A stretch of 64,000 bases of DNA from Gluconobacter kanchanaburiensis NBRC 103587. Its GTDB lineage: Bacteria; Pseudomonadota; Alphaproteobacteria; Acetobacterales; Acetobacteraceae. Within the stretch, counting starts at the first letter, position 1, and every line of letters begins with the position of its first letter. The stretch spans positions 1-64,000 of the forward strand of contig NZ_BJVA01000008.1 in NCBI RefSeq assembly GCF_007988905.1, given 5' to 3'. Positions 19,907 through 21,856 of the stretch are shown here, piece by piece. The notes beneath the pieces are model-generated. The model was not told where the DNA came from, searched no databases, and worked only from the letters and a program-made list of their open reading frames with translations. The translations under genes were made by a program, and so were the position numbers.

Positions 19907-20305
19907 TTAGAAAAGAGCGCCCTGCGCCGGGCTTTTGGGCACGGACCCTCCAAAGTCCCGCTCGATCCAGTGTCGCAGTACGAGCAGGATCCGTGCCTGC
20001 TGCTCCGCCGTTAGTGCTTGTCCGGGCGCCATACTGTGCCATTTGGACAGGCAAGTCCGGCAACATGAGCCAGTTGCATGTTGGGCAATGAAGACAGGAT
20101 GGCCACGCATGGGCGTCTGTTTGCCGTCCTGTGGCGGGTGGGCGGGGGCAAGACGCTCTGCGATGAAGGTCGCGCCATGCTCTATGACGGCATCCAGCCC
20201 CCGGCTTTCAAGATAGAGTCGCGCCTGATCGTCCAGATGAAATCGTGCCCTGAAGCGCGAGCGGGAGAGGCGTTCGAACAGTTCAGCGGGATCAAATCGG
20301 TTCAC
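19907..20305 (-). CDS. DUF4186 domain protein
   Basis: A 132-residue cytoplasmic protein matching the DUF4186 pattern almost throughout: ELFERLSRSRFRARFHLDDQ, GATFIAERLAPAHPPQDGKQ, TPMRGHPVFIAQHATGSCCR, TCLSKWHSMAPGQALT, then a C-terminal helix. The paired Cys-Cys-x-x-Cys with nearby His residues could bind a metal. Function is unknown. It ends four bases past the permease stop in convergent orientation. Confidence 0.88.
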   Translation of the reverse strand: MNRFDPAELFERLSRSRFRARFHLDDQARLYLESRGLDAVIEHGATFIAERLAPAHPPQDGKQTPMRGHPVFIAQHATGSCCRTCLSKWHSMAPGQALTAEQQARILLVLRHWIERDFGGSVPKSPAQGALF

Positions 20306-20365: not shown

Positions 20366-20381
20366 AAGAACATTTGTTCTT
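20366..20381. promoter_or_regulatory. Palindrome upstream of the XseA-like gene
   Basis: Exact arms AAGAAC and GTTCTT around ATTT, 18 bases before the start codon at 20399. It contains GTTC half-sites like those of LexA boxes, although the alphaproteobacterial LexA site is normally a direct GTTC repeat, so control by LexA is only a possibility. Confidence 0.45.
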
Positions 20382-20398
20382 TCTCCATATGGTGACGG

Positions 20399-21433
20399 AT
20401 GGACGCTTTTCCGAGACGCTCCCGCTCATCTTCCGCGGCGGGAGATACAACGACACTGACGGCTCTCTCTCCGCTTCAGGTGCAGGATCTTTTTTCTGCC
20501 CGGCTGGAAGAAATCTGTGCGGCTTTCGACGAATGGGGCTTCCCGCTGGTCGTCGCGGGTCAGCTTGGGGACGCCGCGTCTAATAATTACCCGAAATACT
20601 ACCAGCTTCCTCTCGTCGATCCGCAGTTCGGCACAACCCTGTCCCTTGAAGTTAAGAAAGACGTTCTGACACGGGCGGAGGTCGGGCCGGGCGATCATGT
20701 CCACGTCACGGGAATGTTGCGGGCACGGCAGTATCGCGGGCAGGTCGTCCTGCGGTTCGAAGTGGTCGCGGTGGAACTGCATGATCCGGGTCGCCAGAAG
20801 GTCGAAAGGGTGGAGCGTTCCATTCTGGACACGCTGCGAGGATTGCCCTGCGCGTTTCATCCCTATCCCACGCGCCCGGATGCCCGGCTCCTGCTGATCC
20901 ATTCCGCCGCGTCCAGTACGCTTGTGGCGGAGGATTTTCTTCAGGCTCTGGGGGGCGCCTGGCGTCCCGAGCGTGTGCGAAGCCTGCCCGCCGCCATGAA
21001 CGATCCAGGACGACTGGCGGAAGCGATCGGGACCTGTCGGGAAGACATTATCGTTCTGATACGCGGCGGCGGTGATGCCTCGGATTTCGTGGTGTTTGAA
21101 AATCCTACGGTGATGGAGGCGCTCGCCGTCTGCCCGGCGCATCGCGTTCTGGGGGTAGGGCATACGGCCAACCGGACGCTGGCCGAACGCGTCGTGGATC
21201 ATGCAGCAACGACCCCGGCAGATGCCGGGCATTACATTCGACGCATGAGTGGCCGGGTGTGGCAGGAACAGGAGGAAGCCCGGGCGCAGCAGGAAGAAAT
21301 GACCGCGCTCCGGGACAGTGTGGCGCTCAACGTCGCACCGGAGCGCATGCCAATCGGGGGACGTCTGCGCAACGGGTTGATTCTGTTGGCGATCGGTCTC
21401 GCCTTCGGCTTGCTCCTGCCGAAGCTATTCTGA
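20399..21433 (+). CDS. Short membrane-anchored exonuclease VII large-subunit-like protein
   Basis: A 344-residue protein with the XseA architecture in reduced form. Residues of about 40-145 form an OB-fold (GFPLVVAGQLGD, YYQLPLVDPQFGTTLSLEV, DHVHVTGMLRARQYRGQVVL). The next 150 residues carry the XseA catalytic-core motifs: VLIRGGGDASDFVVFENPTV and GVGHTANRTLAERVVDHAAT, equivalent to RGGGS-DL-F-D and GHE-D-T-AD-VAD-RA-TP. The XseB-binding coiled coil is replaced by a short helix and one membrane span at the end (NGLILLAIGLAFGLLLPKLF). Canonical XseA has about 450 residues. No xseB is adjacent. The role is probably nucleic-acid processing at the membrane, but that is inference. Confidence 0.78.
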   Translation: MDAFPRRSRSSSAAGDTTTLTALSPLQVQDLFSARLEEICAAFDEWGFPLVVAGQLGDAASNNYPKYYQLPLVDPQFGTTLSLEVKKDVLTRAEVGPGDHVHVTGMLRARQYRGQVVLRFEVVAVELHDPGRQKVERVERSILDTLRGLPCAFHPYPTRPDARLLLIHSAASSTLVAEDFLQALGGAWRPERVRSLPAAMNDPGRLAEAIGTCREDIIVLIRGGGDASDFVVFENPTVMEALAVCPAHRVLGVGHTANRTLAERVVDHAATTPADAGHYIRRMSGRVWQEQEEARAQQEEMTALRDSVALNVAPERMPIGGRLRNGLILLAIGLAFGLLLPKLF

Positions 21434-21436
21434 GCG

Positions 21437-21610
21437 TCAGGCTGCCATCAGCTTTACTTTGATGAGAAAGCCGAGCGCTGTCATGGCGACAAGTGCAAAG
21501 GCGACGACCCCATGCCCGTGTGTGACCGCGTAGGTTGTCATCGCAGTTGCAAGAAAGAGGTCGAGGCGATTCAGACGTGAGAGGGGCATGCTGCCCAGTT
21601 GTGAAATCAT
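21437..21610 (-). CDS. Small membrane protein, unrecognised
   Basis: A 57-residue frame with two probable hydrophobic segments (LDLFLATAMTTYAVTHG and VVAFALVAMTALGFLIKV) ending KLMAA. An AGGAC ribosome site precedes the ATG at 21610; a GTG start at 21763 would add 51 residues without hydrophobic segments. It is convergent with the XseA-like gene and its stop lies four bases from that gene's stop. No family is recognised. Confidence 0.45.
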   Translation of the reverse strand: MISQLGSMPLSRLNRLDLFLATAMTTYAVTHGHGVVAFALVAMTALGFLIKVKLMAA

Positions 21611-21856
21611 CAGTCCTGACGTCCTTTGTTTCTGTGCCAGATTGCCGAAAGAATGGTTAGGATCGCGGTCGGTGATGTGCGCTGCTAAAGTAAATCCATG
21701 CGCCTGAAGACGTGCGGCAATGAGGGACGGCGTCCAGACAATCGTGCCAAGATCCTGCCTCACGACCTGCTTGACACGAAAAAATTATCGTCCTGCCGTG
21801 GAGGGGTCAATGCTTAATCGGAACAAGTCGCGGCGTATTCCAGTCGTTGGTGATGC

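Follow-up and report, generated by a model that had tools for sequence, protein, structure and literature searches.

A conserved family of XseA-related proteins with a hydrophobic C-terminal helix in Gluconobacter

The 64,000-nucleotide stretch of Gluconobacter kanchanaburiensis NBRC 103587 analysed here (the window; contig NZ_BJVA01000008.1, positions 1 to 64,000) contains, at 20399–21433 on the plus strand, a gene for a 344-residue protein (plus stop) that is related to XseA, the large subunit of exonuclease VII, and ends in a putative membrane anchor. XSL, a name coined in this analysis, denotes the family of this open reading frame. The family is real, conserved and XseA-related, and it is not to be filed as XseA, three tested defining features of which it lacks. 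Searches of the open-access literature gave no description of the protein or the family, in line with an earlier note on this DNA that knew of no characterised protein of such architecture; XSL is conserved and seemingly undescribed. We tentatively regard it as a tail-anchored, XseB-independent, putative single-stranded (ss) DNA-binding protein of the inner membrane that would cut in the main Gluconobacter group and serve as a binder or tether elsewhere.

XSL shares descent with XseA. Pfam PF02601 (Exonuc_VII_L) is the sole family above cut-off in the window protein (55.6 bits versus 35.9), and its alignment pairs XSL residues 178–299 with profile positions 29–157 of 315, that is, with the first half of the core only. 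A profile of nine XSL sequences matched a single chain among solved structures, E. coli XseA (8TXR_A; E 7.7e-12, profile positions 32–300), and aligned with a profile of 11 XseA sequences over columns 38–283 (probability 99.1, E 5.9e-19); phmmer scored the XSL protein at 47.1 bits against 37 XseA-type frames, a match being obtained with none of 100 shuffles. Two AlphaFold models of XSL, made from shallow alignments and with mean pLDDT values of 42 and 49, served for helix positions and for one fold search, in which Foldseek returned 8TXR chains as the top three matches of the low-confidence model (E 5.9e-7 to 8.6e-7, TM 0.24), a result that the tool flags with a warning on models of such quality. 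The XseA relationship proposed in the earlier note is thus upheld by profile searches (PF02601, 8TXR_A and profile against profile). At the same time, the NCBI xseA model TIGR00237 gives XSL 54.8 bits, under its cut-off of 180. Moreover, a tree of 31 XSL and 19 XseA rows, from which 11 similar Gluconobacter XSL rows were left out, places XSL outside the XseA sequences, the two being split at 100/100 with a warning of long branches from the tool.

The XSL protein has an OB-like region (residues 25–130; 20471–20788, plus strand) that profile alignments show to be collinear with the OB fold of XseA, followed by a shortened XseA core, defined by Pfam and profile alignments, that carries D179, R222, H255 and N258 (residues 160–280; 20876–21238, plus strand). 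The OB region is weak on its own: hhalign versus XseA aligned it in register with probability 20 and E 0.0011, phmmer gave no match for it among the XseA-type frames, and its best match among solved structures had an E value of 0.13. It is therefore chiefly its collinearity with the core that supports the OB assignment. The earlier claim of an OB fold and catalytic-core motifs stood for the core (PF02601 and the 8TXR alignment), with Asn at the counterpart of D241, and remained weak for the OB region alone. The match to XseA ends near residue 299, and both the long arm and the C-terminal segment, into which the XseA of the same genome (about 517 residues) continues, are absent from XSL; the lack of an XseB-binding coiled coil, already pointed out in the earlier note, agrees with a Pfam match that stops halfway through the profile and shows no arm.

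In the low-confidence models, a helix at residues 285–310 is connected by a short linker to a second helix at residues 320–343. The first lies in a pre-anchor region (residues 281–310; 21239–21328, plus strand) with the signature R-x3-EE-x2-ALR-x-S, which is found in 39/39 chromosomal copies and in 0/3 mobile copies, the latter being one in genome G414 and two on plasmids; together these make up the 42 XSL proteins examined. The second (21356–21427, plus strand) is the C-terminal hydrophobic helix, called when a 17-residue segment no more than 25 residues from the C-terminus had a mean hydropathy of 1.6 or higher. In the window protein the value is 2.32 and the helix ends one residue short of the C-terminus; by this simple measure such a helix is present in all 42 proteins, and the same criterion detected none at the C-terminus of the XseA from the same genome. 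The single, putatively membrane-spanning C-terminal helix described earlier is accordingly seen as a hydrophobic tail kept in every relative. The ten residues preceding the hydrophobic stretch carry a net positive charge in 38 of the 42 proteins, which suggests that the main part of XSL is cytoplasmic. In addition, the helix includes G-x3-G in 34 of them, compared with 11.2 expected from shuffled letters, a count that comes from related rows and is thus not a probability.

XSL is present, with intact frames, in all 26 Gluconobacter genomes searched; the ten named relatives are Gluconobacter oxydans, roseus, potus, sphaericus, aidae, vitians and cerevisiae, plus three members of the genus that lack a species name. 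At the family level, an XSL-type match was found in at least 31 of 397 genomes, those listed belonging to the own genus (14), g57 (10), g125 (3), g85 (2), g94 (1) and g67 (1); the 17 from outside Gluconobacter were fetched except for G339, G257 and G375, giving 14. Among the matches listed, G081 (g57) has one to XseA only. In 385 genomes of the class, searched with P0002 at E 1e-10, XSL was detected in the window genome only, three others having XseA-type frames, and in 398 genomes of the phylum it was found in the own genome and in G1032, whose match shares the coordinates of Sulfuricystis plasmid pSTJ1. G1032 is the only positive among 300 genomes of its order, as is G414 among 14 genomes of its genus. 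Among 72,556 plasmid records, two show the XSL architecture. P0001 had matches in another 22, where the annotation reads exonuclease VII large subunit in 19 cases and is lacking at that place in three, and P0003 matched five others. A phage origin was rejected, since 50,697 phage records gave no match to P0002 and seven matches to P0003, all of them partial, and the viral contigs searched contained no XSL. Rejected as well was an anti-phage defence role, for a PADLOC search yielded nothing for P0001 and P0002 and, for P0003, a single match too weak to matter (E 0.0052).

The earlier note had also described the gene as lacking an XseB partner and suggested a search for full-length xseA and xseB. 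The description is correct for the gene neighbourhood and incorrect for the genome: both genes were found elsewhere in the window genome, the one in which XseB was looked for, and XSL is therefore an extra protein. All 26 same-genus genomes combine XSL with a second match, in an XseA frame of 484–526 codons. The arm of the window genome's own XseA (L034 415–1968) contains repeated LPSP-x-LLI-x-R stretches, as if its coiled coil had grown by duplication.

Alignment with 8TXR places D179, R222, H255 and N258 of XSL opposite D155, R205, H238 and D241 of E. coli XseA, so that three of the four XseA residues have their counterparts in the window protein and the fourth is replaced by Asn. We take D241 of E. 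coli XseA to be an essential, catalytic residue. Both R205 and D241 reportedly matter, according to Poleszak and colleagues in 2012. H238 is singled out by the title of the 8TXR entry, 'E. coli ExoVII(H238A)'. Passages of a further report (PMC11077951) give D155 a catalytic role and F63 a role in DNA binding; no obvious counterpart of the latter was found in XSL. R222 and Asn258 are each retained by 22 of the 39 chromosomal orthologues, D179 by 23 and H255 by 24. RGGG followed by GxGH occurs in 22 of the 39 and in all three mobile copies, and the same numbers apply to the joint retention of D179, R222, H255 and the motifs. The catalytic motifs are gone in the other 17 chromosomal copies, which still keep the pre-anchor signature and the tail. 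All 22 chromosomal copies with the motifs and both plasmid copies have Asn at the D241 position; the G414 copy has Asp.

Strong constraint on the XSL core is seen only where these motifs are kept. Five motif-keeping pairs have dN values of 0.035, 0.035, 0.132, 0.076 and 0.166 in the core and of 0.053, 0.069, 0.198, 0.084 and 0.282, respectively, in the OB region. The corresponding values of three motif-lost pairs are 0.037 and 0.008 (L023/L026), 0.068 and 0.008 (L025/L026) and 0.362 and 0.071 (L023/L024); the core therefore changes more slowly than the OB region in copies with the motifs and faster in those without. The XSL tree unites the 17 motif-lost rows (96/96), favouring one loss, and a gap+pgk tree (two genes, midpoint root) puts the motif-lost Gluconobacter within the motif-keeping ones (94/90), favouring two; we regard two losses as the likelier course. 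Alignments A1, A2 and A3 used subsets of the 26 Gluconobacter genomes.

Downstream of XSL, a lipoprotein-like gene and gap-pgk are found in 19 of the 20 fetched loci, the exception being G414. On the other side, the divergent neighbour (19907–20305, minus strand) encodes a DUF4186 protein of 132 residues (PF13811, 159.6 bits) that we do not count as a component of the mechanism. The two genes are adjacent in the seven motif-keeping genomes checked (G000, G002, G004, G005, G006, G008 and G012); the location of the DUF4186 gene away from XSL in three of four motif-lost Gluconobacter genomes, G118 and G414, and its absence from 14 of 26 genomes searched led to its rejection as a functional partner. 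Past the end of XSL, the window has a 108-residue open reading frame without Pfam match (21437–21763, minus strand); at this site G012, G006, G183 and others have a same-strand frame of about 480 residues, a putative glycosyltransferase labelled by eye.

The palindrome with GTTC arms that had been noticed before the gene is real: AAGAACATTTGTTCTT, at 20366–20381 between the DUF4186 gene and XSL, has no other exact occurrence in the window, and allowing up to two mismatches gives three matches versus 1.27 expected. The pattern GAAC-N4-GTTC occurs in 22 of the 26 same-genus genomes, and these are exactly the ones with the catalytic motifs. Across them, neither the AGAAC arm nor the GTTC arm changes and the centre varies, as would be expected of a candidate regulator site. 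The direct repeat GAAC-N7-GAAC, which we take to be the alphaproteobacterial form of the LexA box, is found in the window genome near lexA (GAACCTATAAAGAAC, L065 1417–1431) and near recA (GAACGTTTTGCGAAC, L067 1374–1388). The 4 kb XSL locus contained neither GAAC-N7-GAAC nor GTTC-N7-GTTC and has GAAC-N4-GTTC instead, and SOS (LexA) control was consequently rejected. Genome-wide, on both strands, GAACNNNNGTTCT has 20 matches versus 26 for the reversed control; being no commoner than the latter, it reveals no regulon. The two further sites whose arms read AGAAC and GTTCT both fall inside open frames.

The three mobile copies occur in two different settings. In G414, XSL begins 16 bases past a relaxase frame that matches DUF3363 at 423.3 bits and Relaxase at 26.7 bits. 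Small genes come next, and after them genes for a coupling protein, at 340.5 bits, and for a TrbB-like ATPase, at 119.1 bits; the locus is near the contig end and may belong to a plasmid or an integrative element. The other two copies, on the betaproteobacterial plasmids pSTJ1 (Sulfuricystis) and pAZI09, are divergent from a PD-(D/E)XK nuclease-like gene (L116 10692–11579 and L117 10702–11589, respectively), which matches DUF3799 on pSTJ1. After this gene, L116 has an AAA ATPase whose matches to defence families are weak.

As to DNA binding, cutting, membrane insertion, orientation, pairing and cellular role, we infer the following. XSL, a descendant of the exonuclease VII large subunit, would be tail-anchored: its C-terminal helix, which may self-pair through G-x3-G, would hold the OB-like region and the shortened core at the inner membrane on the cytoplasmic side. 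Because the XseB-binding arm is absent, its action would be independent of XseB. In the main Gluconobacter group, including the window copy, it would bind and still cut ssDNA at the membrane; in other lineages, with the cutting residues gone, a binding or tethering role would be left. This reading, to which we give somewhat less than an even chance, is favoured by the descent from XseA, the universal tail and the chromosomal helix signature, the residues and motifs retained in 22 chromosomal and all mobile copies, the core dN of motif-keeping pairs (0.035–0.166, below 0.053–0.282 for the OB region, with the reverse in motif-lost pairs) and the full XseA match in each same-genus genome, as well as by the position of the G414 copy between relaxase and coupling protein, where ssDNA meets the membrane. 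It is opposed by the Asn at D241, which would mean no cutting if the residue is needed, and by the dependence of XseA on XseB even for DNA binding, as reported in passages of PMC11077951. The lack of an obvious F63 counterpart, the missing C-terminal segment, the weakness of the OB region alone, the poor structure models and the lack of the helix signature in the mobile copies also speak against it.

Because of the same Asn, the chief rival of the nuclease reading is a relative that is dead throughout: cutting would already have been abolished in the window copy, and the protein would, at the membrane, bind ssDNA or full XseA and place or regulate it. Such a role is consistent with the 17 chromosomal copies that keep gene, helix and tail without the motifs, and with the constant presence of full XseA within the genus. 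However, a mere tether would have no need of the slower-changing core, nor of the D179, R222 and H255 found in motif-keeping genomes, and on balance we consider this possibility doubtful.

The mobile copies raise the question of origin. The conjugation operon of G414, the two plasmid copies and a midpoint-rooted tree that sets the mobile copies apart from the chromosomal group, on the outside, would fit a part of conjugative elements that handled the transferred strand at the channel and later moved to the acetic acid bacterial chromosome; nevertheless, with just three mobile copies in two settings, only two of them in the plasmid records, and a tree that leaves the direction of transfer undecided and carries a long-branch warning, this is quite improbable. 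It is likewise unlikely that XSL represents a new family of membrane-tethered, XseB-independent ssDNA nucleases that originated on conjugative elements, where they would process the transferred DNA at the secretion channel, moved to the chromosome of acetic acid bacteria and were turned, perhaps twice, into a non-cutting DNA tether. That the core binds a small ligand or a protein rather than DNA, as lumazine synthases and a B12-binding domain among the weaker Foldseek matches (E 0.0025 and above) could indicate, is very unlikely, considering that the model is of low confidence and that sequence, profile and fold all give XseA as the best match. Finally, a decaying, functionless relic, as the loss of motifs in 17 copies might suggest, is barely credible and already contradicted by constraint: frames are intact in every same-genus genome and dN is well below dS (0.057 versus 0.90 for L001/L003 and 0.027 versus 0.53 for motif-lost L023/L026), with dN/dS of about 0.05–0.09 for near pairs where computable, many dS values being saturated.

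A natural short core that lacks the XseB-binding arm, keeps most catalytic residues and is under strong selection would reveal what a minimal core can do, which is of interest because passages of PMC11077951 report that exonuclease VII needs its small subunit even to bind DNA. In addition to an anchor that points to ssDNA handling at the membrane, the family offers, in the motif-lost lineages that retain helix and anchor, a comparison set for separating binding from cutting. For G. oxydans B58, a transposon knockout collection that spans the genome has been described (PMC8602642).

Compared with XseA (PF02601, TIGR00237; PDB 8TXR), XSL has in common a collinear OB-like region, the first half of the core and counterparts of D155, R205 and H238; unlike XseA, it is devoid of the XseB-binding arm and C-terminal segment, ends in a hydrophobic helix, has Asn at D241, forms a separate tree branch (100/100) and coexists with a true XseA. 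PHROG 9454, a phage 'exonuclease' family, matches XSL residues 216–312 (E 7.3e-12) but has 395 positions and matches in the core only. Closest in layout are the plasmid proteins WP_126447975.1 and WP_152091082.1, whose distinctness is hidden in databases because such proteins are annotated simply as exodeoxyribonuclease VII large subunit: with an XSL-like length of 350 and 351 residues, they resemble the window protein in core motifs and C-terminal hydrophobic helix, and differ from it in their 29% identity, lack of R-x3-EE-x2-ALR-x-S and plasmid context with PRTRC and DUF3799 genes.
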